Source: Ustilaginoidea virens
Taxonomy: Eukaryota; Ascomycota; Sordariomycetes; Hypocreales; Clavicipitaceae
Length of the DNA stretch: 64,000 bases
Direction: 5' to 3'
Assembly (NCBI RefSeq): GCF_000687475.1
Contig: NC_057317.1
Location: 5,332,501-5,396,500 of the forward strand
The translations under genes were made by a program, and so were the position numbers. Below the pieces are notes generated by a model. It made no database searches. It saw only the letters and a list, made by a program, of their open reading frames with translations, and had not been told where the DNA came from. Position 1 is the stretch's first letter; every line of letters begins with the position of its first letter. Shown here in pieces: positions 6,961 to 53,208 of this stretch.

Positions 6961-8857
6961 TTTTATACTGAGACCGGCCGCTATAATCTGCGGCTATTTT
7001 TATAGTAGGCTACTAGCCACTATATATACTGGCAATCCGACTAGTTATTCGACTATTTTACTAGCTATTTTACCAGTTACTCGACTATTTTGCTAGCTAT
7101 TTAGCTAGTTATTCCTCTGCTAATTATTCCTCTGTTATTATAACTATCGGCACCATTTTTCAACGGATTTTCAAACCCTTTTTGCCCACTATGGCAGAGT
7201 CAGGATCCTATAAGGCCACTTTGGATTCCGACTCTAAAGCTGATCTTACTGTACAACTACAGCTAGATATAGACTATATAAAGTCCCAGATGAACACTCT
7301 AACTATCCTTATACAAGGCTTAGTTAGTAGGCGAAATAGTAACGTTCCTACTATTATAATTAGCAAGGAACTAGTAGAGGCTACTAGCCCTACTATCTCC
7401 GGTCCTACTAATATGAACAGCAAGGACCCTGTAGAGGCTACTAGTCCTACTAATACTAACGCCGCTTCTACTAATAATAGCAAGAATAATTCTACTAATA
7501 ATAGGAAAAAGAAGTAGCAACAGAAGAAGAAACAAGACTCTAGCAGCAAACAGCAAAATGTCGAGTCCTTTATTATAGGCAATTATAATACCCAGGATAC
7601 TAATATATCCTATTCCTCTTCTTCTACCACTATATCCACTGATATAAGCTATAGTGCTAAATCATGCGGTAGGACCCCTAAGGATGCCCTCCTTTACGAT
7701 ACAGGATCCACTTGTCATATTATTAATGATAAAAAGCATTTCACCACTTTTCACCATTTTGAGAAGGATGATAAGCCTGTAATTACTACTGGTGGTTGCC
7801 CTATTTCCCCTATTAGTTGGGGCACGGCACGATTTACTGTGCTACAGGGCATTAATCCTACGAAATGGGGTATTATAGAGCTCAAGAATGCACTATATAT
7901 TCCTGCCTTGGATATTAACATCATTAGCGGTGTAAAGCACTATGCCGCTAAAGGGGTACTAATTAAAAATCAGCTTTGGTTAGCAAGCCGTAAATGCATC
8001 GGCATTTTTAACTTTGATAAATACGGCTTTTTCCTTCCACAGAAAGGAATAGACACACTACTACTACATCAATCTTGTAGCCATTATACTGTTACTAATA
8101 GTATAGCAGTAGAGGTCCCCAGCCCTACTAACCCTGCTGATTATAGTGATCCTGAGGATACCACTATTACCCCCGTTCCTACTACTGCAACTAGTAAGGA
8201 ACCTGTAGAGGCTACTAGCCCTACCACCCAACCTCCTGCTATTACGACTAGCAAAGAGCCCGCTATTACGATTAGCGAAAATCCTGTAGTGGCTACTAGC
8301 CCTACTCCTGCCCTTATAGCAGCTGATACAGAATATCAGAAGCTATTACAATTAGCCGGCATTTGGCATATACGGCTAGGGCATATAGGTATTCAGCTAC
8401 TTAAAAAGACCTGTGCTAATACCTACCTGGTTTACCCTTTAAAGAAGAAGGATATTACTAGAACAACCTTTATTACCTTTATCCACCAAAATGAAGGTAT
8501 AGGCCCTATTTCTAGTGGCCCAGAAGGAGACTTTTATAGAGGGCAAAATATAGGTTTAGAGGGGGTATCTAGCAGAAAACCTGCTATTTTACTGGATGAC
8601 CTAGAAAGCATTTCTGACCCCACTAACTCTACTAACCTTACTAACATTACTGACACTAATGTTATACCGGATGACCTGGAAAGCATACCGGACCCTACTA
8701 ATTTTACTAGCATTACTAATGCTACCCCGGATGATATTACTAATACTAATGCCACCGTGGATTACCTTCCTAAGTCAGAACGTACTATACTACAGTCCCC
8801 GGCTACTGCAAAAGATGACCTTATAGATATCCTTACTAGCCTTAATCCTACCGACTT

Positions 8858-8990
8858 TGCTGGCTCTGCTGGCCCTACTAGCCCTGCTGGCCCTGCTGGC
8901 CCTGCTGGCCCTACTGGTCCTACTGGCCCTGCTGGCCCGACTAATCCTACGGGCCCTACCGACCCTATTGGCCTTACTGACTTATTCCCT
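8858..8990 (+). repeat. Collagen-like Gly-Pro-Ala/Thr coding repeat in the integrase-RT linker
   Basis: Nine-base units such as ggccctgct/ggccctact encode GPA/GPT triplets between the integrase remnant and RT. Copia-C has a shorter version (GPTNPTGPTNP) and Copia-D a different Pro-rich repeat at the same place, so the linker tolerates expansion. Confidence 0.85.
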
Positions 8991-9470
8991 AATCAGGATT
9001 TATGCCACCTGATATGGGATTCCTGCTATGCAGCTAAGCGTAAGCTAGCTAAAAAGGCCCCTGATGGTACGCCTAATAGCTGGAAGGATGTGCTACGATG
9101 CCCTGAAAAAGAAAAAGACCTTTGGATAAAGGCACTATTTAAGGAATTCGAGCAGCTTTTGGATACTAAAGTCTTCCAATTTATTCCTAAGTCTAGCGTT
9201 CCTATTGATAGGAAAATTATACGCAATAGGCCTGTTTTTCGGGTTAAAAAGGATGCTAATAATCAGCCTATAAAATATAAGGCTAGATTAGTTGTTAAGG
9301 GCTTTATGCAAGTCGAAGGAAAGGATTTCCAGCATACCTATGCTTCCACCTCTATCCCACCTACCTGGAGGGTTATACTGGCTTTGGCAGCTAGTAATAA
9401 CTGGGAAATAAAGCAGATCGACTTTATAGGCGCCTTCCTAAATAGCGAACTTTCTGAGACTATTTATATG

Positions 9471-10210
9471 TATTGCAATTCTCAAGGTCACTATAAAAGC
9501 AGAGCCTTACTAGCTAGCTAGATAGTACAAGACTGTCTGCGACCTGTGAACTAATCTTAGTATAAATACTAGATTTTTCACCAAGTCCTAAGACTATACA
9601 AGTGCTATAAAGCAGGGCAAGTGTAAAGGCAAGGCAAATATAAGATAACCAGAAAACGCAGGGAAGGTAAGAAGTTAAGAGGCATATAGTGCATTAACAG
9701 ACTCAATTGTGCTGCCCTTCAACTGTCTAAAAAGAAGGGGGAAAGCTATCCTATATATACACGAAGGAGGGGTGGGCCCAGGCATTCAGGGTAGCCAGTA
9801 AGATAGCTCCCCGTAATGCTCACTATGCCACGTATATGATACGTCAGCAGCCCCACTATATCCGGCCTTTCCAACCACCCTAACCACCGCACTAGTAATT
9901 AGCCACCACGCTAGTGACTAACCACCATGCTAGTGACTAACCACCACACTAGTGGACTAGCCACTACGCTAGTAGGCCGCCACCACACTAGTAGGCCCAC
10001 CACGCTAATTTAGCAATGCCACACCTTTTTAACAAGGCCTACCTTACTTGATATACAGTAAATAATCCACTGAAAATCCTAAGGTAAAAGGCAAGGGCCT
10101 AAGGTTGGTAAGACTACCGTAAGTCTAAGAGGCGGTATAAGGGCTAGAAGGTCAGTAAGTCAGTAGGGCATTAGGCCAGCAGCCTAGTAGGCTACTATAG
10201 GATTTTAACA
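9471..10210 (-). repeat. Solo LTR of the Copia-1 family inserted in Copia-1 RT
   Basis: 740 bp, reverse complement of the Copia-1 LTR (plus-strand ends TATTGC...TTAACA), with TSD atatg at 9466-9470 and 10211-10215. It splits the RT after ETIYM; the protein resumes at the second atatg with DIPDGF. The insertion plus TSD is 745 bp, which accounts for the shift from frame 3 to frame 1. Confidence 0.95.
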
Positions 10211-11581
10211 ATATGGATATCCCTGACGGATTCCTTGAATTTACGGAAAGTCTACTAACTGATAGCAAGCTTTGGTCTAATATATAGCGTCAACGGCTAC
10301 TAATTCTGCTTAAAGAAGCTGGCTTTAATTCCTCTATTAAGCAAGCTATTTTACTAAAGAAGGCCCTATACGGGCTAAAACAAGCACCCCGCGAATGGCA
10401 ATACCGGCTAAAAGACCTGATTTCTAGTGAAGGCTTCTTACCTTTAGCATCTGATGCTGCCGTCTTTTATAATAAGCAAACCAGCACCTTTATCGTCACC
10501 TATGTTGACGATTGCCTATTAGTTGGTCTAAATATAACTTATATTAACCAGCTAAAAAGGAAATTCCATAAGGTCTATGCTATAGAAGACCGCGGTCCGG
10601 CTTCCTTCTTCCTAGGCGTACAGATTATACGAAATAGGAAGGAAGGTCTATTATGGCTATACCAAGCCCAATTTATAGCAGAGGTCCTAGCTAAATTCGG
10701 TCTATAGGATACTAAACCTCAGCTTATTCCACTTCAACTAGGGATTCTAAATGAATCTAGTGGAAAAGACCTTAGCCCTACTGATCAGAGCCTTTATCAG
10801 AGCCTTACTGGCACTATAATGTGGCTTATGATGATGACTAGACCCGACCTAGCATTTCCTACACAATACCTCTCCCGGTTTATGTTGAAAGCAACTAATG
10901 TGCATCTAAATGCTGCAAAAGGCAGCTTTAGTTACCTTAAAGGCACTGAGAACCTAGCTATTTGTTTTACTAAAAGCAACCAACAGCCTATTATAACCGC
11001 TTATTCTGATAGCGATTTTGCTGGCTGTAAAGAAACTTCTAAATATACTGGAGGCTTCTTAACTACTATTAATAGTGGTCCTATTAGCTGGCGTTCTAAA
11101 CGAGCCTCTTTAGTAGTGCTATCTACTTTAGAAGCTGAATCTGATGCCTTACTTGAGACTATCCGTGAGGTACAGTGGCTTTCTAACCTTTTTAAGGAGC
11201 TAGAAATTGATATCTTACGCCCTATACCGCTATACTGCGATAACAAGGGCTCTATTTCAAATTCTAACGACCCTAATCAGCATGCTCGCACTAAGCATAC
11301 GCTATTAAAATTCCGGTATATTAGGGAGCAAGCCCAGCTGGGCTTGGTGAAAATTACCTACTTACCTACTAATAGCATGCCTGCTGACGGTCTTACCAAG
11401 CCACTACCGGGCCCTAAATTTACTAGGTTCCGCGAGTTACTAGGCCTTAGGGCCTGCTAACTTATACTAACTTACTAAGGTTTTTTTTTTTTCCTATGTT
11501 TTTCCTTGGGACCTTTATTGCATTTTCTTTCCCTATTCTTTACACGATTAGCTTGATACTATAGTAGCTAATCAGAGGGGG

Positions 11582-20250: not shown

Positions 20251-20928
20251 TACAGTGGTTAAAAGTCGTTGAAAAATAGTGCCGATAGTTGTAAAAGCAG
20301 AGGAATAACTAGCTTGCTGGCTAGTAAAATGGTTGAATAAGTAATTAAATAACTAATATATATAATGACTAGTAGCCTACTATAATTAATAACCGCAGTA
20401 TATAGCGGTAGGTCTTAGTATATAAGAAAAAGCACAGATGCGTAGGTGCCGTAGGTGCCGTGAAGTAAATCCCGTAAGTACCGTAGGTGCCGTAGGTAAC
20501 GTGATATAAATATTATCACTGCCGCAAGTGCCTTAATATAAGGGTACCGTAAGTGCCGTACTACAAATATTATATATAAAATAATATAACAGGTGCCGTA
20601 AAGTGCAGTAGGTATCGTGCACTAGGTGCAAAGGTGTTATATAGTGGTATAGTATAATAGATATTACACTTATAAAATCTGTAGGTGCTATAGATTACTC
20701 CAAGGGTGCCGTAAGGTTACGCCGTAGGTTGCCGTAAGGTTATGCCAAAGGTTGATATAAGGTTATACCGTTAATTACCGTAGGATAACGCTATAGATTA
20801 CCAAAGGATTAGCCGAAGGTGATAATAGGTAAGTAGAGATACCAAAGGGTAAGCCGAGAGGTATTAAAAGATTTAGCTGTATTAGTAGTACTAATAAGCA
20901 AGAGAGACTAAAGATTGAATATAAAAGA
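20251..20928 (-). repeat. Copia-C leader with eroded tacggcac repeats
   Basis: On the minus strand this is the leader between priming site and polyprotein, collinear with 6417-7190 of Copia-1. It contains many ggtgccgta/cttacggcac variants at about 20440-20830. Gypsy-A inserted near its upstream end, 38 bp from the priming site. No gene seen. Confidence 0.8.
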
Positions 20929-21170
20929 TATAAAGGACTGGCCCTAGGGCTACTACGAATAGGCATCGAATAAATATATTAAATAGACTAAGGAGGAAAG
21001 GAAGAGGACCCAAATAGGGGCCTCTAAATAGTCTATTTATGCCTATACGTAGCACGGGCCGAGTCCTTAGCGAGCCTTTATAACCCCGTGCCGATACTCC
21101 TTAAGCTAATCGCAGGCGCAGCCCGAGTCCTAGCCATATTATAGCGCAGGTATAGCCCGAGCCTATAATA
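20929..21170 (-). repeat. Gypsy-A 3' LTR
   Basis: 242 bp; plus-strand TATAAAGGACTGG...CTATAATA, RIP-altered from TGTAAAGG...GTGACA. Next to it inside the element lies the minus-strand G-rich tract ggaggaggggggta (21171-21184). Confidence 0.93.
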
Positions 21171-21563
21171 TACCCCCCTCCTCCGCCTCAGAATCGGGAA
21201 AATCGCCTTCTATTATCAATTAGTATTCTATTAGGGACCAATCATATCGCCGATTACTATACCGTAATATCCTCAAATCAATATATAGGCTAATTACTAG
21301 GTATAAGAAGGATTCGTCTATAAGTATAGTAGATATAGCTATATAATTAATAGGAGTCGTATAGTCGTCAATTAGGAATAGTATAGTAGAAGCGTATAGA
21401 AGTTTATCATCGCGCTATTAGTTAGAGGTTAACCGGTATAGCTAGGAATATTATAAAAAATTTTTCGCTAGCTGCCGGCTGGAAATCTCCCTATAGTCTT
21501 TATTATTTTTCGCTAAGGGCTCTTTTCCTTCTTCCCTTCTTCTTATTAAGGCTATTACTAAGC

Positions 21564-22960
21564 ATTAAAGGTCCCTATTATCGTAAGTTTTTATCCCGCA
21601 TTAAGCCCGTATTATATGCTAATCGGTTGAAGTATTATTTCCGCCCTTTCTGCATTAGTATTCCTTACTAAATTCTGTCTTTATTGCAATTAGCTACTAA
21701 CTCCTTTTATAGCGAGACCTGATTTAGCCTATATATGAAGCCTATTGGTAAATCTTAAGTCCCTACCTATATCGCGAGCGTCTTATGCTAACCCTATTTA
21801 AAACCCGAATATATCCTTATCTACCGCTAGTAGTACCCCTGCCGGGGGGGAATCAGGTCCTACTTATCCCTAGAAGCTATATTATACTATTAGTAACTAT
21901 CTTTTAGAGGGGGACTCCTTAGATAAAAAGTATTAATATATAAAAGACAAAGAGTTCCTATACGATAGATATACTAAATATATATAAGCGACCGGAGAGC
22001 TACCTATTTATAAGCGTTATAGAAGAGTAAAGGGGTGTAAAAGCTATACTAATTCCTATGCATCCTATATATAGCTTGATTAATATCTCGCGGGGAACCC
22101 TATACTATAATGTATTTTATGCAATTAGATTAAGGCAGTAAAAGAAGGGAGGGCTGTTATAAAGCCTGCCTATCCTAAAATAGATACGCAGAAAGCGTAT
22201 ATTATTATCCTAACCCCTAAGTTTCGGGCTTTAAATAATTAATAGCATTATGCTTTTGCTGCCGAATAGGTGGCCCCCCGCGCCCTATATTTGGCATTTA
22301 GGCTATAAGATGCTTCCAGTATAGTTTCTACTATATCTGCGGTATTAATGCCCTCCTAGCGCTAGGCTAGGTCTATTATAAATCTCGCCCTTATGCTAAA
22401 TATTATAAGGGAAATATAAATAGAAGCCTGGGAATATTATACTAGGATAAAGCAGTATTAGGTTAGAGCTTAATATCTTTGGCTGCCCCTGCCCCTATTT
22501 TATCCCGCCTTCCCTATATATTATATAGAGGGGGAACTATTATACGACTAGGGCGGCTAGTATTATATAGAGGCTCCGCTACTACTAGCATAAGGTTATC
22601 TATTACAATCTTTATAATAGTAGGCAGAACCTACTCTATAGCCCCTTATACCCTCGTTGTCTTTATCGCAGCTACTACTATAGATGCTATATCGCCTAGC
22701 CCTATCTTATTAAGAGGTCTTATTGTCTCTTAATATACCCCTACTATATTCGCCTTACGGTAGCCTATAGACTCTATTACGTTATAGATATATAGGGAAC
22801 TATCCCCGTCTAATATATAGTCTATATACGCGCCTTGCCCTATAAGGACCCCTATTATTATTAGCCTATATGCTATTATAAGGATAAGAGGAGGCTTAGG
22901 GAGATAGAGAGTAGCCCTAAGAGGGGGCATATTAGGGGTAAGCCTATATCGGCCCCGGTT
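21564..22960 (+). pseudogene. Opposite-strand ORF of Gypsy-A 3' region, unknown protein (RIP-disrupted)
   Basis: On the strand opposite to gag-pol, one frame runs about 1.4 kb with stops that are nearly all TAA/TAG, as expected of mutated Gln codons. It contains QCILC-type text with CxxC at 22111-22122, then a block TPKFRALNNQQ near 22213-22245, and a Pro/Leu-rich C-terminal half. The equivalent frame of the diverged Gypsy-B gives CIVC and YPKFNTLYRQQ at matching spacing. Several Tyr residues around the CxxC could be former Cys. I do not recognise the protein. It lies between the chromodomain and the 3' LTR, where some plant elements are known to have extra opposite-strand ORFs. Start and stop are uncertain. 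Confidence 0.5.
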
Positions 22961-23039
22961 TAATTTATTATATTTTTTTTTTTGAAGTGTTTTTATTATT
23001 TTATATTTTGCTTATAGTAGTAGGCGTTTAGCGTTATTT

Positions 23040-26000
23040 ATTAGTCTAATAGACCCTATTTCGGGACCTAGCTAGGCCTATTATAAGTCCTAATATCTCC
23101 CTATTTGGCCTCGAATATTTCTCGTGCGATAGTATCCTTAAAGTTTTTTAGGAGTTCCTATATCAATAAATTATACCCTTTCTATTTTACGAGTATATTG
23201 CGTTTCTATCTCTAGCCCTATATATTTTTCGCTATAAGTATCTTTTTAACCTTATACTCTTTATGTGGGTTTATAGAGTCTTAAGGAAGGATAAATAGGG
23301 GCCTAGGTTATATATTAGTTATTACCTAACTAAATAATAGATCGAAAGCGGCTTATTCGATTAAATTAATATAGAAAACTAAATAGATGCCTTATAGGAT
23401 ATTAAGCTAAATATTAAGTGGTAATAAGATAGTAATAATAGTATATTTAGTAGAGACTTAATCGAGCTTCTTATATAGGCAGTTCGTTTTAATATTCTAG
23501 AGGTTTAATTATATTTAGTTACTAACCTAAAAGCACTTAGCCGGGTATTATAAATAGTTAATAGTATCTTACTATTATTATTATACGAAGGTAATAGTAG
23601 CCTAAGCTAATTTTTATCCTTTTTTAAGGTTATTAAAAAAAAGGGCTATATACCTCTTTAGGGTAATTAGGCTTAAGGTTACCTCTAAAGGTAGGGCGAT
23701 AATCGGAATATTAAACCTATTAAGCAGCCGGTTTAGGCTAAACCTAATAATAAATAATATCCGGTTATTTAACGCGAGTTAATATACCGCAAGATAGTAT
23801 AGCCAATTATACTAATTAAAGGAAACTATAATATAAAGGACTGCCTATACCTCTTAGTTCGTTCGCTTTATACTGCTATCGGTTTAGGGGTAGTATACTA
23901 TTAATAAAAGTTACTTAATCCTAATTGATTTATATAGTATAGACTAAAATTAGCCTACTTAATCTGAACTTTAATTACTAATAATCTCCTTAAAGAAGCT
24001 ATAAAAGCGCTATTAGCACTATTAGAAGCATTTTATATAATCTTCTGCTTTTATTAAGTATATAGCCTTAAGCTAGATATACTTCGATAAGCGATTTATA
24101 ATAACTATAAGGAATTATAGGTTAAAGGCATTATAGGCAGGAAGGTCGGTTATAAAGTCGATTGATATCTATAATTAGAAGTAGTCTATAATTAGTAGCA
24201 GTTATAATAACCCCTAGCGCAATTAGCGGCTCTTATATACCCTATAGCATCGGCAATTCTAAATATATCTTACTACTTTAGACGATATATTATCGAAGTA
24301 ATAATCCTATCGTAATAATTAGAAGGTAGTGTTTTTCCCTAGGTGGCCTACAATAGGCGAGTTATAGTAGTATTAGATTACTATAGTGGTTAAAGGCTTA
24401 AACGATAGAAGTTATACCTATACCCGGTAAAAGAGCACGCTATATATATTTAAGATATAGTCGGCAATTTATTCTTATATTGCCGCTTCTACTAGAAATC
24501 GTTATTTCCTATTTGCGATTATTATCTATTAGGCCCGATATATACTATCTTTAGATATTGCTTAGTTTTAAATAGCTTAAAGGTAAGAATCAGCGAAGAT
24601 ATATAGGCCATAAGGTAGGGTGGTCTATAGGGCTAAAGTTGGTATTATCTCGCCTTCTATTTTATCTATATCGAATACTAAAATAAATAGTAGTTTTAGG
24701 ATCTAGCCGATTTATAGTTCTACCCTATCTGCCTTTTATTCCTATCGAGAAAGTATATTAGGGCGTTAGGCTTATAACCCTAGCCTATACTAAAGATAGA
24801 AATTAAAAAGCACTAGAGTCTTAGCCTATCGGGCTTATCGCTTAGATATTTTTTATAATTAGGCGAAGTACTTTAGATTCTTATAGTCGGTAAGGATAGT
24901 AAAAAGGGAGGCTATTAAGTAAAGTTCTATTAACTATACCTTAAGGTAAAAGATAATAGCGAGGAGTTCCTTATTATATATAGTATAGTTCTATTCTATA
25001 TCTAATAAGCGAGCGGAATAATATATAATAGGGTAGAGTATATTATCCTCCCTAATTTACGATAGATAGCTACTAAGGGCCGTACTAAAATTATCTGCCT
25101 TAAGGACTATCTCCTTATTAGGGTCCTATTAGGCGAGAACTAAAGACGATATAAAATACTATTTAAGCGCTTAAAATGCCGCCTCTTTTTCGTTTAGCTA
25201 TTAGAATAAGACCCCTTTTTTTATTAATTTAATTAAAGGGTCGATAAAATAGGAGAAGTCTAGGATAAAATCGCAATAGAAGTTAGTAAAACCAAGGAAA
25301 TTATAAATGCCTTTTAATTTTATAAGTGCTTCCTAATTCTAGATAGCCTTAATCTTTTTAGGGTCTAAACGGATTTCCTTTTTAGTTATTATAATATATT
25401 TTAGATACTAGACCTCCTTTACTATAAAGTCGTATTTATTAAAATCTAAATTTAAGCCGGCCTTTTATAGTTATTGAAGGACTTCCTTAATGCGCCCTAT
25501 ATAGTCTGCCTTTAATCCCCTAGTATAAATTAAAATGTTATTAAGGTAGGTAGTTATAAAGTCTCTTAGTATATTCCCTAAGGCCCTATTAATATATCTT
25601 TAAAAGATCGTAAGGGCCCTAATTAGGCTAAATAGTATAATAAGCCATTTAAATAGTCTAAATCGTATATAGAATATAATTAAGTGTTTATCGCCCTCTA
25701 TAATATATATCTTATAGAACGCTATATATATATTAACCTTAGTAAACTATTTCGCCTAGGATAGGGATCGTAAAGTCTTTTTAATTAAAGGGAAAGGGTA
25801 TCGGTTTTAGATTATAACCTTATTAAGGGCCTAATAGTCGATGCAAAAATACTACCTATTATTCCCCTTTCTAACTAATAGGATTAGTATTACTACCAAT
25901 AAGGAGCTCGCTTAGATTTATCTTTTATCTATTAGGTTAATTACTTATCTCTAAACCTTAAGTAATTAGTCTCGTGGCATATTATATAATAGGCCCTAAG

Positions 26001-27650
26001 GTAGGTCTAGCTGGCTCCTATCTATAGTCTTTTTAAGCTAGATATAGTAATCTAATATACCCTAGTATAAAGGGAGACTAGAAGCTTTCTCCTTATTAAA
26101 GAGGTCGATAAATTCCTATAATTCTATTAGGAGTACCTATAGCTTTTATAATCGTAGGGTAGAATCTTAATAAGGTAATAGTATAATATAGAGGATGCGT
26201 ATTATCTCCTATAAGCTTATCGCAATAAAGGAAATCAACCGGTCCCTAAAGTATTTCACCCGCTTTAGTATACTATAAAAGATTAAGCTAAGGATATTTA
26301 CTATAGTTAGATCCTATCGCCTTTTTATCGATTCTTTAACGATAAAGCTATCTGCCGATCTAATCTTTAATTAATACTATTTTGCCTATAGTATAATATT
26401 ATAGTGCTCTATTTAAGGCATCCTAAAGATAATATCGTAGGTAAGGCCTAGGATAATATAAAGTATAACTATAGATAGCTATCTATCGATATTAATCGCT
26501 ATATAAATAATATAGGTAATAAAAGAATATATTACCTTATATTCTCCTAAATGGCTCTAAATATTTACTGCTATTCCGATTTCCCTATATTATAGTAGGC
26601 AGATAGGTTAGAGGCTTAACTATTATACTATCTTTTCGCTTATAGCATTATAGCAGTTATATCCCGAGTCGATTAAAATATTAATAAAGGTATATAATTT
26701 ATATAGGATTAGTATTAAAAAAAGGTATTTATCTATTCGTTTTGCGATCTCTTTTAATTCCTTTTATAATTAAGCTAGGGTCTATATGTATATCTAAAGC
26801 CCTCTAATAAGATTAAGTTTAAAGGCTATTCTTTTTCCTAATCTTTATTACTACTTTTGACCTCTACGACTTATAAGTTAAGTAAAGCTATTTTAGCTCT
26901 ATTAGGTCGGATTATTAGCAGTAGGTAGTATATAAATATCTAATAATTAAGAAAGCTATACTAAAAATAAAGGCCTTTCTTCTTACGATCTTTATACTAT
27001 TCTTTAAAGACTTATATCGCCTTAGGCGTATATTAATTACCCTTTAAGTCTAGCTTATTAATACCCGATATTTATATATCGCCCTTAGAATCCTAGGCGT
27101 ATATCGGTTAGGAACGGATCGAACCTATATAATAATTAATAGTTAAGCTAGTCTTAATATCGATAGCAATTTATTAGTAATAGTCTACCGCCGAATAGTA
27201 ATCGTAATAGGAAACCCTAAGGCTAATAATCTTATTAGCTATACGAGCATTAAACGCCAATTAAAGGTATTTAAGCTTAACTTTCTTAGGCTAATTAAGA
27301 CCGCTAGTAAGCATAAGTTTTTCCTCGAATTGCATAAAAAAAACAGCAAAAGGTTCCTTAGGGCCTTAGCATAAAGAGTGCTTAAGCTTAGTAATAGCGC
27401 GATCCTATTAGTATAGGTCCTTAAAGAGATATTAGAGGTATTTAAAGAACTTTATTATATTATAATCGTAAGCCGCATTATTCTTAAAGAAGGCCGCGAC
27501 CTATAATTAGACTATAGACGAAAGGTTCTAAAAGATAAATATCTATTAAATCTTCTTATCCTTAATAAAATCCTTATCGACCTTAAGCTTATATTGCATA
27601 AAGGTCCATTAGGCTGTAAATATAGCCTTTTTGCTATTAAAGGGGTCCCC
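23040..27650 (-). pseudogene. Gypsy-A gag-pol: gag, protease, RT, RNase H, integrase, chromodomain
   Basis: Blocks readable on the minus strand, in order: gag (KEPFAVFFMQFEEKL, about 27360-27310); a zinc knuckle with Cys turned to Tyr near 26980; protease ILIDSG near 26670; RT whose active site reads YLNNILIYT near 25535-25560, so both Asp of YLDD are now Asn; RNase H (SARLLDIEQNYTIYNKELLAI) near 24990-25060; integrase (DFITDLPAYN, later TDSSIKRTNQ where the catalytic Glu is Lys) at about 24160-23860; and a chromodomain (EYKVKKILIAKN, LVKQKGYN) at about 23250-23130. Stops are mostly TAA/TAG. Element ends are known; ORF ends are approximate. The chromodomain would target integration to modified histones in related elements. 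Confidence 0.8.
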
Positions 27651-28001
27651 TATTGGGATTGGCTTGCGTTTTAGCTAGGTATCCTAAGCCGTAGGGAGGG
27701 GGGCGTTCTATTATACGACCGGGGCCGGTTAGGGGGCAGCTTAAGAGCTATTTAACTAGTTTATAAGGAGGGTCTATAGCGAGGCAGTAATAGCAGTAAA
27801 GTATTACGCATTAGTCTGTATCTACGCCTCTATCTATTATAACCCTAATGCAAGCTACTTTACTCGGGTATATATATTACATTGGGGGCATTATAGTCTC
27901 GGGTTATTTATACCCGTTTCTCTAGGAGTACTTATCTCGATATCTTATATAGCCTATATTATCGGCTCTATAATGTGAGGTTATAATAGTAAGGCTGAGA
28001 G

Positions 28002-28013
28002 AGTCTATTTAAA
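28002..28013 (-). other. Candidate self-priming site of Gypsy-A
   Basis: Element-sense tttaaatagact lies directly after the 5' LTR. Eleven nt (ttaaatagact) are perfectly complementary to agtctatttaa inside the LTR of the same element. Tf1/sushi-type elements prime by folding the first 11 nt of their RNA onto such a site; the same is inferred here. Confidence 0.6.
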
Positions 28014-28255
28014 TGTAAAGGACTGGCCCTAGGGCTATTGCGAATAGGCATTAAATAAATATATTAAATAGACTAAGGAGGAAAGGAAGAGGACCTGAAT
28101 AGGGGCCTCTAAGTAGTCTATTTATGCCCGTATATAGTATGGGCCGAGTCCTTAGCGAGCCCTTGTGACCCCGTGCCGATACTCCTTAGGCTAGTCGCGG
28201 GCGCAGCCCGAGTCCTAGCCATATTGTGGCGCGGGCGTAGCCCGAGCCCGTGATA
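28014..28255 (-). repeat. Gypsy-A 5' LTR
   Basis: 242 bp; plus-strand TGTAAAGGACTGG...CCCGTGATA. It contains ttaaatagact at 28064-28074, the complement of which could anneal to the adjacent priming site. Confidence 0.95.
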
Positions 28256-28298: not shown

Positions 28299-29173
28299 TA
28301 TTACAATTCTAAGGGTAAATATAAAGTGAAGCCAGTATAAGGCAAGACAGATATAAATAACCAGAAACGCAGGAAAGGTGAAAAGAGTCAAGAGGCATAT
28401 AGTGCATTAAGAAGTTCGATTGTGCTACCCTTTTACTATCTAGAAAGAAGGGGAAAAGCTATCCTAAATATATCTAAGAGAGAGGGTAGGCCCAGGCATC
28501 CAAGGTAGCCAGTAAGAGAGCTCCTCGTAATACCCATTATACCACAATATATCCAGCCTTACCATATATTTAAAAATAAGGTCTGATACTCCATATCAAG
28601 CCTTACCAAATATTTAAAATAATGCCCGGTATGCCACGTAATATCCAGCCGTATTAAATATTTAAAATAATGCCCGGTGTGCCATGTAATATCCAGCCGT
28701 ATTAAATATTTTAAATAATGCCTGGTGTGCCACGTAATATCCAGCCGTATTAAATATCTTTTTAAATAAGGCCCGGTATGCCCACGTAATATCTAGCCGT
28801 ATTAAATATTTTTAAATAAGGCCCAATGTGCCCACGTAATATCCGGCCGTATTAAATATTTTTAAATAAGGCCCGGTGTGCCCACATAATATCCGGCCGT
28901 ATTAAATATTTTAAATAAGGCCCGGTACGTCATATGCCGCCTTACCATATATTTTAAAAATAAGGCCCGATACGTCATATCAAGCCTTACCAAAAATAAG
29001 GCCCGGTAAAGGCCTACCTTATTTGGTATACAGTACTAATCCACTGAAAATCCGGAAGGTAAACGGTAACGGCACAAGATTGGTAAGACCACTGTAAGTC
29101 CGGTGGGACAGTCGTGAGTCCAAGAGACGGTGGAAGGGCCAGCAGTCTAGTAGACTACTGTAGGATTTTAACA
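28299..29173 (-). repeat. Copia-C 5' LTR
   Basis: 875 bp, collinear with 14244-15108 apart from one longer spacer in the minisatellite and scattered transitions. Followed by TSD atagt. Confidence 0.93.
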
Positions 29174-33732: not shown

Positions 33733-35744
33733 TACCCCCCTCCTCTGCCTTAGAGGCAGAAGAATAACCATCTAATATTATCCCCTATATATATCGCCCC
33801 CCAATTAAAACCTCTTATAGCCCTTAAAAATAACTTTAATTAGATATATAGGATAATAATCGGGCGTGTAGATATACCGATATATGACCGATATGAATAT
33901 AGTAGGGGCTAGAATCGGTATGCTTTAGGCAGATGTAAGGGAATCCTATCGAAGCCGGTTATAATGCCATCAGCTAGAAGGAACTATATTGCAGCTATTG
34001 TAAAGCAGAAAAATTTTTATTGCTAGCCGTCGGTTAGAAATCTATTTATACTAAGGCTTCCTCCTTTATCTACTTCTCTTTTATACTTTTTTCTCCCTCT
34101 CTCTATTCTTATGCCTACTATTACCGAGGCTATTATTCCTAATAATAAATCTATGGTATTACTACTATCGTGAGAATTATCCCTATTAATAGAGTTACGC
34201 TATCGAAAGTTCTTAAATCGTTCGTATTAAGTCTATATAGTAAATCGTCTGGTACTAATAGGTATTTAAATCCCCCCTTTATTTGCTATTATATTAGATT
34301 TATTACTATATCATCTGGAGGACTAATAGATAGGAATATACCTATTGCCTAAGACCCTTTTATAACCCTATTAGGTCTATCCTAAGCGTCTATTAAAAGC
34401 TCTAGAAGTATTAAGCATAAAAGAGGTTTTTAGCTAAAAATACTATTATAGCTGCTATAGTCTATACCTTCCTTAGGATAATTATATATTTCCCCCCCTA
34501 GCTCTAAGCTTATTATTATTTCCGATAATAATAAGAGTCTGGTAGAACCTTTATCGCCTAATATAAGAGCCCTATTATCGCCTTTATATTCTCCCGCCCC
34601 TTTTTGTATAAAAGTCTTATTATTAGTAGGGGTAATACTAATAAAAGCTTCTTCTTTAATAGCTATTACCCCTAAGACCCTATCTAAAGTACTATTAGCT
34701 CCCTCCTTATCTACTATTATGCCCTAGATACCTTTATGCATTAGGAAAACGCCGCTCTTACCTACTACTAGATTATTATATTAGCGGTTATAAAAAAAGC
34801 GTACTATAAGAGAGTTTTTTATCTAAAGGGATTTTAAAGGATTAAGTACTAACGATATTAAAGAGGTAGAGTATGCCTATATCGCCTATATATAATATAC
34901 TATAGATACCAGAGAATATATCGTCTATATATAGTTTAATCGCTCTTAGGCTTATATTCGATACCATTAGAAATATAAGACGTATATTTAGTGCAAGTGT
35001 ATAATATCGATAAATCCCTAACTATAGTAGGTAATAAAGTGTATCGTCTGTATAGCATAAAAAAAATAAAGCATTAAGGAGGCCGCCCGTCTAAAGATAG
35101 GAGATATCTTAGGCCGAAAGACCTATCTTTACCCTAAGTTTAATACGCTATATCGTCAATAGGATAAACTATAGGCTATAGCGTAAAAGTATACTATAAC
35201 GGCCCTTTCTGTATATACCCTGGCTGCTAATATTGGCAGGTTGATTCCTATTACGCCTATAACGACTATTATTCCCTCTACCTTAACTACTAAATCTTAA
35301 TAGGCTAGCGGTAACTCTATAGCGCCTATTATATAATTATTTACAAAGTAATAATAAGATATACGGATTATAGCGGAAGCGATAACTAGCTTCGCATATT
35401 AGGTCACCTTTACTATACCCGCGCCCTATACTCCGCCTATTTCCTTTTAATTAGCATCTTCCCTATATGCCGGTATAGCCTCGCCTTAGGCCCTTATACT
35501 AATAACCACGCTACTAACTAAGGCCGGTTTTATTACTACCGGCCTAATATTATAAGTATATCCCCCTAAACCTATTACGCCTTATTATAGGTACCTAGGC
35601 TATACTAGGCCGAGTTAGTATCTGCTAACTATACCGCTAATACTGCTGCTACCTTTCCTACCTTATTATCCTATAGTCCCCCCCTTTCCCCTATATGCCC
35701 CCCTACTAAATCCTATAAGAGGGTAAGGGAATGCCAATAAAGAT

Positions 35745-36469
35745 TATTGCAAAATGGTGATTCAGAACACTGTTGGAAATGTACTGGATACCGACAGTGG
35801 CGTACAAGGCGTTGCAGAATAAAACAAGAGCTGGTTAAAGATTTAAAGCGCACAAGAGGTTGACCAGAGCAAAGATGTTAGGGAAATCTGATTCTAATTG
35901 TTGGTGGTTATTCTAGCTAGAAAGAGGGAATTTTGGGCATATTTCTACCATCTTGAAAAAGTGGTTGAAAATAATGAAAAACCGCAAAAATAGCGAAAAA
36001 CCCGACGAAAAGTCGGTCTGCCCAACCGTGCCCAGTCTGTGCCCAATATCCTACCCAGTGCATACCCAACCAAGCCCAGTGGCTTATAGCGGTGTGCCGG
36101 ATGCCCTATAACAGCCTGCCGTACGGGCCGGAAGCCCTATATCGGTCTGCCGTAAATGACCGGTGTAGCGGGTGACTATATGTAGAAGGCCGAAAGTGCT
36201 GGTATTAGCAAGGTTTGCCCATTTGGTAATCCCGTAGAAATGCGCCGCCTGTTGTGGGCCCTGTGGCCCGCTGTGACCGGCCGCTATGGCCGGCTGTGGG
36301 GCGCTGTGCCGGTGCCGTGACCGGCGCTGTGGCCCACTGTAATCGGCGTTGTGGGGCGCTGTGCCCCACCATAGCGCCTGGTATAGCCACCGCGATATCT
36401 CAACATAAAGACGTCGTACGGTAGCGAGACCAGTACCAAAATATAGCTAAAAAGGCGCTGATTTCAATA
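35745..36469 (-). repeat. Copia-D 3' LTR
   Basis: 725 bp; plus-strand TATTGCAAAATGG...TTTCAATA. A GC-rich stretch at 36240-36370 repeats gctgtgg/ccgctgtgaccgg units. Inside it a 61-residue minus-strand frame (36205-36390) is identical in both LTRs; it is a property of the repeat and I do not call it a gene. Confidence 0.95.
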
Positions 36470-42576: not shown

Positions 42577-43301
42577 TATTGCAAAATGGTGATTCAGAAC
42601 ACTGTTGGAAATATACTGGATACCGATAGTGGCGTACAAGGCGTTGCAGAATAAAATAAGAGCTGGTTAAAGATTTAAAGCGCACAAGAGGTTGACCAGA
42701 GCAAAGATGTTAGGGAAATCTGATTCTAATTGTTGGTGGTTATTCTAGCTAGAAAGAGGGAATTTTGGGCATATTTCTACCATCTTGAAAAAGTGGTTGA
42801 AAATAATGAAAAACCGCAAAAATAGCGAAAAACTCGACGAAAAGTCGGTCTGCCCAACCGTGCCCAGTCTGTGCCCAATATCCTACCCAGTGCATACCCA
42901 ACCAAGCCCAGTGGCTTATAGCGGTGTGCCGGATGCCCTATAACAGCCTGCTGTACGGGCCGGAAGCCCTATATCGGTCTGCCGTAAATGACCGGTGTAG
43001 CGGGTGACTGTATGTAGAAGGCCGAAAGTGCTGGTATTAGCAAGGTTTGCCCATTTGGTAATCCCGTAGAAATGCGCCGCCTGTTGTGGGCCCTGTGGCC
43101 CGCTGTGACCGGCCGCTATGGCCGGCTGTGGGGCGCTGTGCCGGTGCCGTGACCGGCGCTGTGGCCCACTGTAATCGGCGTTGTGGGGCGCTGTGCCCCA
43201 CCATAGCGCCTGGTATAGCCACCGCGATATCTCAACGTAAAGACGTCGTACGGTAGCGAGACCAGTACCAAAATATAGCTAAAAAGGCGCTGATTTCAAC
43301 A
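42577..43301 (-). repeat. Copia-D 5' LTR
   Basis: 725 bp; plus-strand TATTGCAAAATGG...TTTCAACA. Element-sense termini are TG...TA. Almost identical to the 3' LTR, so this insertion is young relative to its surroundings. Confidence 0.95.
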
Positions 43302-48381: not shown

Positions 48382-51300
48382 ATGGCTACTAATACCGACC
48401 TAGGGAACCCAGCAAACTTCTAACTGCTAGGCAGTAAAGACTGGTTTAAATGGATCTCGATTATTAAGAAGTTCGCTATCAACGAAAACATCTGGGCCTA
48501 TATCAACCTTTCTGTGGAGGAACCTAATAGGCCTACCTTATAACAGCCCGTTAAGCCTACCGCTTCTACCATTAAGCCTCATACTTCCTCTATCCTTAAC
48601 CTCGACGATTCTGATTTTACTAAATTGCAGTATATAACGAATGTCTATAGGACTGCCCTACAGGATTATAAGGATAAGAAAAAAGCTCTCGTTAATATCC
48701 AACACTGGATTATCGCAACTATAGGCAACTACTACGATACTATAAGCCAGGAGAATGATGTTGCCGCATAGCTATACCTGTTAAAATAATGCTTGCAGCC
48801 CACCACTTAGGACTATGAAAAAGATATCCGCCAGCGCTATACAGCTATACTGCGAAGTCCTAATAGGACTAAGATATCCAGCTAGATTACTTCCTACAAG
48901 AAAGTCCTTGCAGAAGCTATTAATATCAATATACTAGATACACAAGGACTCCGACCAACCCAGGATTTTATCGACGCTGTGGAATCTATTGTACTAGCCT
49001 TTTCTAATTATTAGAAGAATAGAATCAAGGAAAAGCAATGCAATAATAAAGAAGGATAGGAGAAGAAGATACCCGACGGTCATTATATTAGTGATTTATT
49101 CGAGTAAGAGTTTGCCTCATAACAATAAAGAGCATAAGGTGCCTTTGCCTCTTTCTAGGATATAGATACCAATAAAAATCAACAAAAAACAACTGACATT
49201 ACTAAGCTAAAATAACCATGCATTTGTGGCCTTTTATATCGCTGGGAAGATTATTATGTTTTAAACCAGCAAAAGGCGCCCAAGGATTGGAAGCCTAATA
49301 CCACTATACTTAATAAAATCCAATCCAAGTTTTCATCTGATCAGCGCTTTAAGGATATAGTTGTTAAAGCATTATAAGCGAAAGGAATCACAATTAATCC
49401 TATTATGTTACAGCCACCCTCTCCTTTTATATCACTTGGAATTGCGTTTGCTAGTAAGGATAGTAATACGTTATACAACCTTATGCAACCCGAACCGACT
49501 ATATCGTTAATGACTATTACCAGCCCATAGGCAAGCCCATAGGCATCCCTATCTATTACCAGCCTATAGGCATCTCTCTTAACTACACCCTATCTACTTA
49601 AAGATTCCTGGATACTGGATAGTGGCTCCAACACTTATATCACCAATAATAAGGACCGGTTACTAGATTACGTTCCAAATATCGAGCCCGAAACAGCATT
49701 TGCTAGTGAATCTAATCCTTCTATACTAAGATATAGAAGAGTGCGATTAAATACTAATAAAGGCATCTTCGAGCTACTATATATAGCATATATACCGATA
49801 TTTCATACTAATGTGGCAAGCTTGGAACGATTTATGCATGCGAATTACCACTAGAACTCACAGACTAGCTAGATTACACACAATAAGAACCGTTTATTTT
49901 ATACTAACCGGATGTTTAGCCAGCAGGTTATTGAGTATAGCGAAGTCGCTATTGCTGCCACCACTACTACTACTGAGGATACTATGGTATCTTACCCTTC
50001 TGACGATACTACAGTATCTTGCCCTTCCACATCTAGTACCTCTAAGGATACTACGCCGCCTTCATCTATTATTAGTAGGGAAGACCCTACTATATCAGAT
50101 AAAAATATACCTCCATCAATCAACAATTCTGCGGCTATACAATACACATCATCTCATCCCATTCCAACCACTACAGCGCCCGCTACAGCAGTGGCTATCT
50201 CAAAGGATACCTATAATGCATCTGCCTCGGAAGCTACAGCTACGATATGGCATAAGCGACTAGGCCACCCTAATAAGGAAGCCTTAGAAAGGATAGTCCA
50301 GTCGACTACCGGCGCTAAAATTAAGGGATTACTTACTATTAATTATAAGCAGTGCTCACTATCTAAGGCCACTAGGATTATCAGCCGGCAGCCCCATCTA
50401 CCTAGCCCAAGACCTTTCTGGCGGGTATATATTGATATATTTATACTAGACCAAGCTTATAATGGTGCTATTACAGTACTATTACTACGGGATGATGATA
50501 CTAAATTTATCTTCTGTTATCCTTTATATTCTAGGACCCAGTCGGAAATCCTAGGAAAGCTAGCAGACCTTGACAACTATTTACAGCGCCAGTGGAACCT
50601 TGCTATCTCTATTGTTCATCGCGATAATAACCCTGCTTTCTAGCAATAATACCATAATTGGAAGACATCCTTAGGTATAGAGGATGAAGTCACAGCGCCT
50701 TATACCTTAGCCTAAAACGGCCCAGCTAAACACTCGGGGGGTATTATAGGGACTAAAGCTAGGACCTTACGACTAGCTGCTAACCTACCTAAAGATCTAT
50801 AGCCGGAACTATAGAAAGCCGCAACCTTCTTATATAATCGCACACCACAATAAGGCCTTCAGTGGATTACACCACATCAACGACTTCATTCCTGGCTAGC
50901 TAATAACGCTAGGGATACCCAATATACTGATCCTAGGCCTTCTATATCATTCCTCAAGGCTTACGGTTACAAGGCCTATCCATTAATAACAACAGCATTA
51001 AAAGGCACTAATCGACGAGAATTAAAGCTAGCACCACACGCTGAGATAGGATATTTAGTAGGTTACGATTCTACTAATATCTACCGTGTGTGGATTCCCG
51101 ACCCTTATGAAGTACGACGAATTCGCGATATTACTTTCGATAAAAACAGCTTCTATAGTGGTAAAGCCACTGCCACTATACCACAACGAATTAAGATACA
51201 ACTGCCACAATATATCGACAACGCATCTAAGTATAAGGATATAGACGAACTCTATATATCTCACCCTTCTACTACTATTATACCTGTTCCTTCTACCCCT

Positions 51301-53208
51301 AGCACTACTCAGCCTTATATTCCTAGTCCTACCATGCCTTCTACTAGCATAACATTACCTTCGACTTCTATACCTACTAGTGAACAAGCTGTTCCTAGTA
51401 AACAACAACATCTTACAGTCCAGCTACCTACCCCAGCTTCTATACATCCTTCTGAAGCAAGCGCTAAGATTAGTCCTATACTACGAAGGTTAGCTAGGCT
51501 GGCTAGTAAGAATGCTTCTAGTACGGCTTTTATTAGCAGTTCTTTTCTAGGCACTAAGGAACGCCTACACCGATCATCCCTACCGCCTAAACCTAGGTTT
51601 TGGAAAGACCTAAAAGGTCACCGTTTCGAACCAGAATTTAAAGAGGCCGTAAAGAGTGAATTCTGCGATAATTAGAATAAAGGAACCTTCAAGCCTACAC
51701 AACTATCAGACCTTCCTAATAATTATAAGCCTATACCACTTACGTGGGTGTTTAAATATAAGTGTGATAAACATGGCTTTCTCACTAAATTTAAAGCCCG
51801 AATTTGTGTGCGTGGTGATCTTCAACCTTACAGTAATAAAGAGACCTATGCCGCTATACTAGCTGCTAAATCCTTCCGAATCTTAGTAGCTATTATAACG
51901 AAGTTCGACCTTAATACTATACAAATGGATGCTATATCGGCATTTACTAACAGCCTACAGGACGAAGTCGTCTATATCGATTATCCAGATGGATTTAAAA
52001 GACCTGGATAGGCACTATTATTACAACGCGCCTTATATGGTCTTCATAGGTCCCCTTACCTATGGCAACAAGAGCTTTTATCAACCCTTAAATCTCTCGA
52101 CCTTACTCTTATCACAAAAGACCCTTGCATTATGATTACTACCACTATAGTAGTCTTTTATTTTGTGGATGATATAGTAGTACTATTTTAACTAAAGAAT
52201 CGTCCTAAAGCAGAATCCCTCGTTAATAAATTAAAAGCAGCCTATAAAATGAAGGACCTTAGTACTCTAAAATAGTTCCTAGGTATCCGAATTATACGGC
52301 ATCGGCCTACTAAGACCTGGCTATTGCAAGACTCTTATATGGAAAAGCTTGTATACAATTTCTTAAAAGGAAGAAATATTACACATAAAGACTATCCAAT
52401 TCCAGAACAGCCTCTTAATAAATATACTGGTATCGCTACGGCACACGAGATATACCAGTACCAAAAACTCATAGGCTCTATAAATTACCCAACCACTATG
52501 ACCCGACCTGATACTGCTATAGCAGTCTCCCGCCTTTCAGAACATCTACACAACCCTTCCCCTCACTATTACCTACTAGCCATAGGGGTCACAATGTACC
52601 TCTATATCACACGTTACTTAGCTATTCAATATACTGCCATACAACAACAACTAAGTGATGATATCCAGCAGCAACCTTCTACTAAAGAGTTATTAATATC
52701 TTCTGATGCTGCTTTTGCCGATGATAAAGAGACCCGGAAGTCTACCCAAGGCTCTTTCTTCAGCCTATTTGGCGGACCTATTAATTGGGAAGCCATTAAA
52801 CAACATACCGTTACTACATCTTCTACCGAAGCAGAGCTACTAGCACTATCGTCAACTGCTAAGACCACTATATCTGTAACCCGTCTCATGGAACAACTAG
52901 GACTTAAGCTTGATCATAAGGTCACTATTGAGTGCGATAACCTACAAGCTATACGCCTAGTAACAACAACAATGCCCCGTATTAACACTGCATTAAAGCA
53001 TGTTGATATCCACAACAGCTGGCTGCGACAGGCTTATCAGCAGGGTTTATTCGACCTAGCTTATATCCCTACTAATAATATAGTAGCGGATGGGCTCACA
53101 AAGGCTCTTATAGGCCAACGATTTACTACCTTCCGCAACCAACTAGGCCTAGTAGATATTGAGGACCTAGTACGAAATACAGAAGATGACGAGAGTGATA
53201 CCGACTAG
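48382..53208 (+). pseudogene. Copia-E polyprotein (Gag-PR-IN-RT-RNase H)
   Basis: A single frame of 1608 codons from ATG 48382 to TAG 53208 with no frameshift; the breaks are nonsense codons, mostly TAA/TAG at likely Gln positions. Gag has a CxC...H...C-type knuckle (PCICGLLYRWEDYY, 49216-49257) in which His and the last Cys are now Tyr. Protease WILDSGSNTYIT has Asp at residue 413. GAG_pre-integrase WHKRLGHPN begins at 623. Integrase runs to about 50960, with VYIDIF and VHRDNN; the Glu region reads LAxNGPAKHS, so Glu is now Lys. RT has IQMDAISAFTN (from about residue 1181) and YFVDD at 1260. RNase H has SDAAFADD at about 1440, then TSSTEAELLALS. The longest open pieces are 49912-50643, 51088-51675, 51748-52011 and 52324-53208. 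Of all elements here it is the closest to a working copy. Confidence 0.92.

Follow-up and report, generated by a model that had tools for sequence, protein, structure and literature searches.

Evidence for a RIP-damaged protein gene antisense to gag-pol, with a candidate six-cysteine module, in chromovirus-like Ty3/gypsy elements of Ustilaginoidea virens

Introduction

Does the region separating pol from the 3′ long terminal repeat (LTR) of a degenerate fungal retrotransposon hold a third gene, transcribed against gag-pol? The question is raised by Gypsy-A, a chromovirus-like Ty3/gypsy element on the minus strand of a window of 64,000 nucleotides from Ustilaginoidea virens (NC_057317.1, positions 5,332,501 to 5,396,500; host genome of 37.2 Mb in 8 contigs). 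The initial annotation had placed a plus-strand frame at 21564-22960, pointing to stops that are nearly all TAA or TAG and to residues shared with Gypsy-B, a diverged element of the same window. Compared across copies, the stretch at about 21739-22956 is, on the evidence of the sequences, what repeat-induced point mutation (RIP) has left of a protein-coding gene that runs against gag-pol. The reading as a whole, a selected and conserved antisense third gene of about 400 codons whose product would be a nuclear, nucleic-acid-binding accessory regulator, we consider probable. Antisense genes recur in plant and fungal LTR elements without known function or, mostly, protein class; here several element groups of one genome share one antisense protein with a defined, testable cysteine module, and selection on the gene is still readable despite heavy RIP, through transversions and Cys/Tyr columns rather than through stops.

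Results

The plus-strand frame whose codons start at positions equal to 1 modulo 3 contains TAA and TAG stops and no TGA from 21739 to 23160, and is real in that sense; its proposed extent had to be revised. We aligned 40 copies of Gypsy-A (group A), the window copy and 39 others, taken from the best 40 genome matches, and compared them with 10 copies of a related family, C. Shared 1-nt indels occur across copies at 21516, 21588 and 21733, and length varies at 22972; between 21734 and 22950 there are no indels common to the copies and just three single-copy ones (22908, 22919, 22925). Because shared indels flank the stretch and none lies inside it, the conserved frame is nearer to 21739-22956 than to 21564-22960. 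On one side it is bounded by the pol end near 23050 (by eye), on the other by the 3′ LTR, which is the aORF-3R placement. Its parts are as follows.

21739-22956, plus strand: putative antisense protein gene in its damaged state, some 406 codons long, end points approximate, drawn from conservation, transversions and the indel-free interior
21961-22068, plus strand: six-cysteine module, with Cys/Tyr columns at 21961, 21970, 22009, 22036, 22045 and 22066, the third and fourth of which enclose a basic stretch
22111-22122, plus strand: CILC, with Arg and His also in its columns
22213-22245, plus strand: TPKFRALNN followed by two stops, kept in groups A and C, with a similar segment in Gypsy-B
22474-22773, plus strand: Pro/Gln-rich, less conserved segment; the matching 97 residues of the family C copy L062 include 23 P and 12 Q
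22792-22833, plus strand: conserved C-terminal motif, window version IGNYPRLIYSLYTR

The two motifs on which the initial annotation had relied lie where it put them, and Gypsy-B carries CIVC at 35040 and YPKFNTLYRQ with a following stop from about 35127, in the same order. The TAA/TAG-only pattern is likewise present, but it proves little. In the 40 A copies the antisense frame has the lowest TGA count of the six frames (11 in 16,127 codons, against 12-49 in the others), and stops fixed in at least 95% of copies number 19 in 404 codons there, compared with 27 in 590 and 21 in 600 codons of the pol frame (counted in up to 18 records). Fixed stops are just as frequent in the pol frame, which makes the pattern weak evidence, and stop-codon statistics were rejected as proof of an antisense gene. 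That stop statistics alone do not set the frame apart from pol or other frames is what favours chance, by which the frame looks open merely because RIP makes TAA and TAG everywhere; the tests insensitive to RIP, namely transversions, frame comparisons, the cysteine pattern and the Gypsy-B search, speak against chance, which we hold to be extremely improbable.

The antisense frame was under purifying selection, the strength of which is imprecisely estimated. RIP causes transitions and makes no transversions, and since this is so only columns varying between purine and pyrimidine were counted. Such columns number 16, 10 and 33 at codon positions 1, 2 and 3 (406 columns each; p = 7e-4) among the 40 A copies, and 20, 30 and 55 (382 each; p = 9e-5) among the 10 copies of family C, with p values that are rough because the copies are related to one another. 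When the rarer class must occur in at least two A copies, the counts become 8, 1 and 15. Fixed differences between A and C, where each family is more than 90% one class, fall at 69 of 356, 52 of 350 and 101 of 314 columns, in a codon alignment built through the proteins of the antisense frame and hence favouring that frame somewhat. As a positive control, pol gives 20, 15 and 79 variable columns of 1200 each. The transversion rate at positions 1 and 2 over that at fourfold sites (18/60) is 0.46, with a bootstrap 95% interval of 0.22-0.91, and the signal is clear in 21844-22473 (15, 17 and 36, and 12, 9 and 28, at positions 1, 2 and 3) and weak beyond.

Conservation of the antisense frame extends across several element groups. 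In comparisons of four A with three C copies, the plus-frame pair came top in 12 of 12 (157-212 bits, 36-40% identity; runner-up 105-138 bits); a fairly open minus-strand frame at about 22300-22950 was rejected on these scores. A genome search with the masked frame of one A copy, in which the best 102 of 188 candidates were scored, brought up another family, 40-47% identical in this same reading frame, and a search from L062 (best 102 of 170 scored) returned groups at about 68-69, 61-65, 48-57 and 38-45% identity. These two queries and the Gypsy-B query (best 101 of 104 scored) gave at least 102, 102 and 100 scored matches, sets that overlap. The Gypsy-B features concerned are these.

34503-35744, plus strand: homologous antisense frame in Gypsy-B, whose search matches A copies in the A frame
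34878-34985, plus strand: six-position module of Gypsy-B; the window copy has Tyr throughout, whereas other copies have Cys at position 2, 3, 5 or 6

With the Gypsy-B frame as query, the matches listed include six A copies (25-29% identity, E 2.4e-8 to 0.0026), and coordinates place every one of them in the A frame. When the six frames of one element are paired with the six of the other, the A frame with the B frame ranks first (E 2e-5; the next pair has 0.009). The frame is weakly conserved in Gypsy-B.

Position relative to the reverse transcriptase is conserved as well: a frame that has such a partner is mostly convergent with it, at a distance of some 2.4-2.6 kb. On contigs C2, C4, C6 and C7, at least 18 of 60 A/C-group frames have an opposite-strand reverse transcriptase no more than 6 kb downstream, a lower bound since losses are expected in damaged copies, and 14 of these lie at 2434-2563 nt. 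Other pairings among the matches listed are six upstream on the opposite strand, one downstream on the same strand and one upstream on the same strand; of the 77 reverse transcriptase matches listed for the four contigs, 16 have an A/C-group frame at a distance of up to 6 kb. In the Gypsy-B group the reverse transcriptase is convergent in at least 11 of 35 frames, nine of them at 2506-2523 nt, and upstream on the opposite strand in two. An RVT_1 match (C6:371368-371850:+) adjoins the antisense gene of L062, with the reverse transcriptase opposite to the frame as expected of a chromovirus, and in L058 and L059 a chromodomain-like end of pol, seen by eye and unmatched by Pfam Chromo, directly follows the antisense gene. 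RIP-insensitive evidence and this conserved geometry together argue for the third, oppositely oriented gene that the initial annotation had proposed.

The same geometry bears on the origin of the gene. Gene capture is known for LTR elements, according to passages of PMC7264820, and an ancestral element might have captured a host gene or incorporated an unrelated nested transposon; the frame recurs across several diverged groups, its spacing from the reverse transcriptase being fixed, which makes this unlikely, as does the finding that the stop-free matches listed are short fragments (L066), while a capture before the groups split would still be compatible.

Within the preferred antisense protein gene, six columns hold Cys or Tyr only in all 40 A and 10 C copies, spaced C-x2-C-x12-C-x8-C-x2-C-x6-C; RIP turns Cys codons into Tyr codons.

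Column 21961: A, 10 Cys and 30 Tyr; C, 8 Cys and 2 Tyr
Column 21970: A, 11 Cys and 29 Tyr; C, 1 Cys and 9 Tyr
Column 22009: A, 40 Tyr; C, 4 Cys and 6 Tyr
Column 22036: A, 20 Cys and 20 Tyr; C, 4 Cys and 6 Tyr
Column 22045: A, 19 Cys and 21 Tyr; C, 6 Cys and 4 Tyr
Column 22066: A, 13 Cys and 27 Tyr; C, 7 Cys and 3 Tyr

For column 22009, Tyr in all A copies, we infer a Cys origin from family C and Gypsy-B. L062, the least damaged of the 10 C copies (RIP index 1.27), has all six Cys, and the stretch that holds them is free of stops. Column 21937 is also Cys/Tyr-only (A, 40 Tyr; C, 3 Cys and 7 Tyr) and was kept out of the module. Allowing Cys or Tyr at each position, the pattern matches twice in the 127,996 codons of the window (21961 and 34878), once per Gypsy element. 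Among 20 A loci (L009-L028; 359,960 codons) it matches 20 times, each locus contributing a single match at the homologous position. A and C supplied the pattern, which leaves Gypsy-B as the independent match. Of five further Gypsy-B stretches, four match the module, three of them with Cys at position 2, 3, 5 or 6; the L068 stretch misses it. Between the third and fourth Cys the window has the basic run KRYRRVKG. The module is probably zinc-binding, to judge by its cysteine pattern.

That nearby Tyr codons are former Cys codons of a zinc-binding region thus seems to hold for the six columns upstream of CILC, all Cys in L062, and fails for CILC itself, whose cysteines are not a conserved pair. 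The two CILC columns contain 13 Cys, 8 Arg and 19 Tyr, and 15 Cys, 20 Tyr, 4 Arg and 1 His, in the 40 A copies, and Arg, Trp or Gln, and Arg, stop, Gln or Trp, in the 10 C copies. The first position of CIVC is Cys in the window and L068 and Arg, His and Arg in L069, L070 and L071; the second is Cys, Tyr, Arg and Cys in the window, L068, L070 and L071. As zinc ligands, CILC was rejected for group A on its Arg and His, and CIVC on its first position in Gypsy-B.

These columns also bear on whether the region acts as antisense RNA, feeding silencing as double-stranded RNA or serving as a promoter, with the frame incidental. Convergent transcription would yield double-stranded RNA, and such regulation is discussed for these elements in passages of PMC7264820; but transversions track codon positions, amino-acid similarity peaks in one frame and the six Cys/Tyr columns are kept across groups, which leaves this account very unlikely, an additional RNA role still being compatible with the protein gene.

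The source element and its surroundings in the window comprise the following features.

20928-21170, minus strand: matching part of the Gypsy-A 3′ LTR, LTR limits approximate
22957-23050, no strand: gap separating the two convergent genes; a T tract in it, at about 22972-22983, varies in length
23050-26900, minus strand: Gypsy-A pol remnant, identified by eye, limits approximate
28013-28255, minus strand: matching part of the Gypsy-A 5′ LTR, 88-89% identical to the 3′ LTR part

By eye, the Gypsy-A reverse transcriptase lies at about 25.3-25.9 kb, with YLNNILIY, and the chromodomain-like end of pol at about 23.1-23.2 kb. The ratio (CA+TG)/(AC+GT), 0.58 across the antisense-frame region and 0.32 for 23100-28000, indicates RIP damage. 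Seven repeat copies spaced 48-52 nt apart occupy 28593-28957, beyond the matched part of the 5′ LTR. Two copia-type regions (7065-11460 and 49787-53208, by eye) have long open frames and a milder ratio, 0.94-0.95 in the measured stretches, with TA/AT high too.

The 3′ region of Gypsy-B, at about 33.8-36 kb, is split from its pol (43.4 kb on) by an LTR-flanked insertion, copia-like by eye, whose flanking repeats (35850-36467 and 42682-43299) are 99.4% identical over 618 nt, a match that starts at the edge of the compared slice; this copia-like insertion between the antisense gene and pol is a young insertion in an old element. One member of the Gypsy-B group, G000:C2:1350755-1351993, has 16 in-frame stops in 413 codons, with a convergent reverse transcriptase (C2:1354504-1354986) at 2511 nt. 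L066 (G000:C6:756000-756560) is a short stop-free stretch of GC 0.588 without signs of RIP; it resembles the Pro-rich end of the Gypsy-B antisense frame at 40% identity and may be either a fragment spared by RIP or a piece that was reused.

Discussion

Chromovirus-like Ty3/gypsy elements would, on the reading we prefer, have possessed a third gene, some 400 codons long and situated between pol and the 3′ LTR, which would be transcribed toward pol from a promoter near the 3′ LTR. The protein would begin with an N-terminal six-Cys module that includes a basic patch, continue through a conserved middle and a segment rich in Pro and Gln, and finish with a short conserved C-terminal motif. It may have acted in the nucleus, binding nucleic acid as an accessory regulator of its element, a role proposed for other antisense genes; the copies seen have been inactivated by RIP. 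The basic run KRYRRVKG and the Pro/Gln-rich stretch suit a nucleic-acid-binding regulator, and a zinc-binding accessory regulator is most likely the function of the predicted product. Because the databases searched gave no relative, the functional assignment draws on the cysteine pattern and composition.

Several observations weigh against this reading. The family C signal consists almost wholly of single-copy variants (2, 1 and 3 columns at positions 1, 2 and 3 when at least two copies are required), and within that family position 2 exceeds position 1 (30 vs 20). Constraint is looser than in pol, with a bootstrap upper bound of 0.91, and the first 35 codons give no selection signal (15/32, 7/32, 7/27), so that the 5′ limit of the gene is approximate. 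No intact copy was found, all full-length matches listed carrying in-frame stops and the stop-free ones listed being short fragments such as L066; of the eight matches in a genome search for Chromo, none lies beside a listed antisense frame. No relative of the antisense protein was found in Pfam, PDB, IMG/VR or a protein database, for whose fungal content there was no positive control.

Pfam also gave no match for the RIP-damaged reverse transcriptase and chromodomain pieces of Gypsy-A, and because these failed too, its negative results are weak for group A and stronger for L062; as proof of novelty they count for less, for the same reason. Matches to S14 ribosomal protein (E 0.14), a PP2A subunit (E 0.64) and DAG1 (E 0.5) were judged to be due to chance. 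A literature search turned up no description of the six-Cys protein in the passages it returned, which does not prove that none exists, and PMC3248453 and PMC9910759 contained no passage on antisense or additional open reading frames. We put forward only tentatively, as possible but rather doubtful, the stronger proposal that the protein represents an undescribed six-Cys zinc-binding family, distinct from BRTN, whose origin would predate the divergence of several chromovirus-like groups, and which would be encoded antisense and would regulate its elements as some retroviral antisense genes do.

Comparison with known systems

The fungal Zn2Cys6 cluster (PF00172) follows C-x2-C-x6-C-x5-12-C-x2-C-x6-8-C. 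The antisense module resembles it in its six Cys, the C-x2-C-x6-C of its second half and a basic stretch, and differs in having 12 residues, not 6, between the second and third Cys. Membership was rejected, as C-x2-C-x12-C-x8-C-x2-C-x6-C departs from the pattern and no Pfam match was found.

Boty of Botrytis cinerea and its brtn gene were reportedly described by Zhao et al. (2011) in Virology. The likeness to Gypsy-A, as far as the passages citing Boty go, lies in an extra gene that runs against gag-pol in a fungal Ty3/gypsy element, and the chromodomain of the Boty gag-pol has a chromodomain-like counterpart, identified by eye, in Gypsy-A; the difference is that those passages, which allow a comparison by description, do not mention a six-Cys module. 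Passages of four papers present brtn as an additional antisense gene of Boty-like elements (PMC8365987, PMC4227169, PMC5987419, PMC7264820), and the report for Boty itself (PMC4227169, PMC8365987) makes it quite possible, if somewhat short of an even chance, that the antisense frame is a BRTN homologue and its protein family already described. The protein database held no match to the frame, but BRTN's presence there is not established, and there is no direct counter-evidence.

Plant elements have conserved antisense open reading frames of unknown function at the same place between pol and the 3′ LTR, the Grande protein being nuclear and DNA binding being predicted for TRP28, according to passages of PMC7264820 and PMC11963269. 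Our antisense gene shares with Grande, Retand and TRP28 this conserved placement; it differs in its fungal host and in giving no TRP28 (PF04195) match in the Pfam scans. Antisense genes at the site between pol and the 3′ LTR are thus already known from brtn, Grande and Retand, and the protein encoded opposite to gag-pol in Gypsy-A and its relatives joins that kind.
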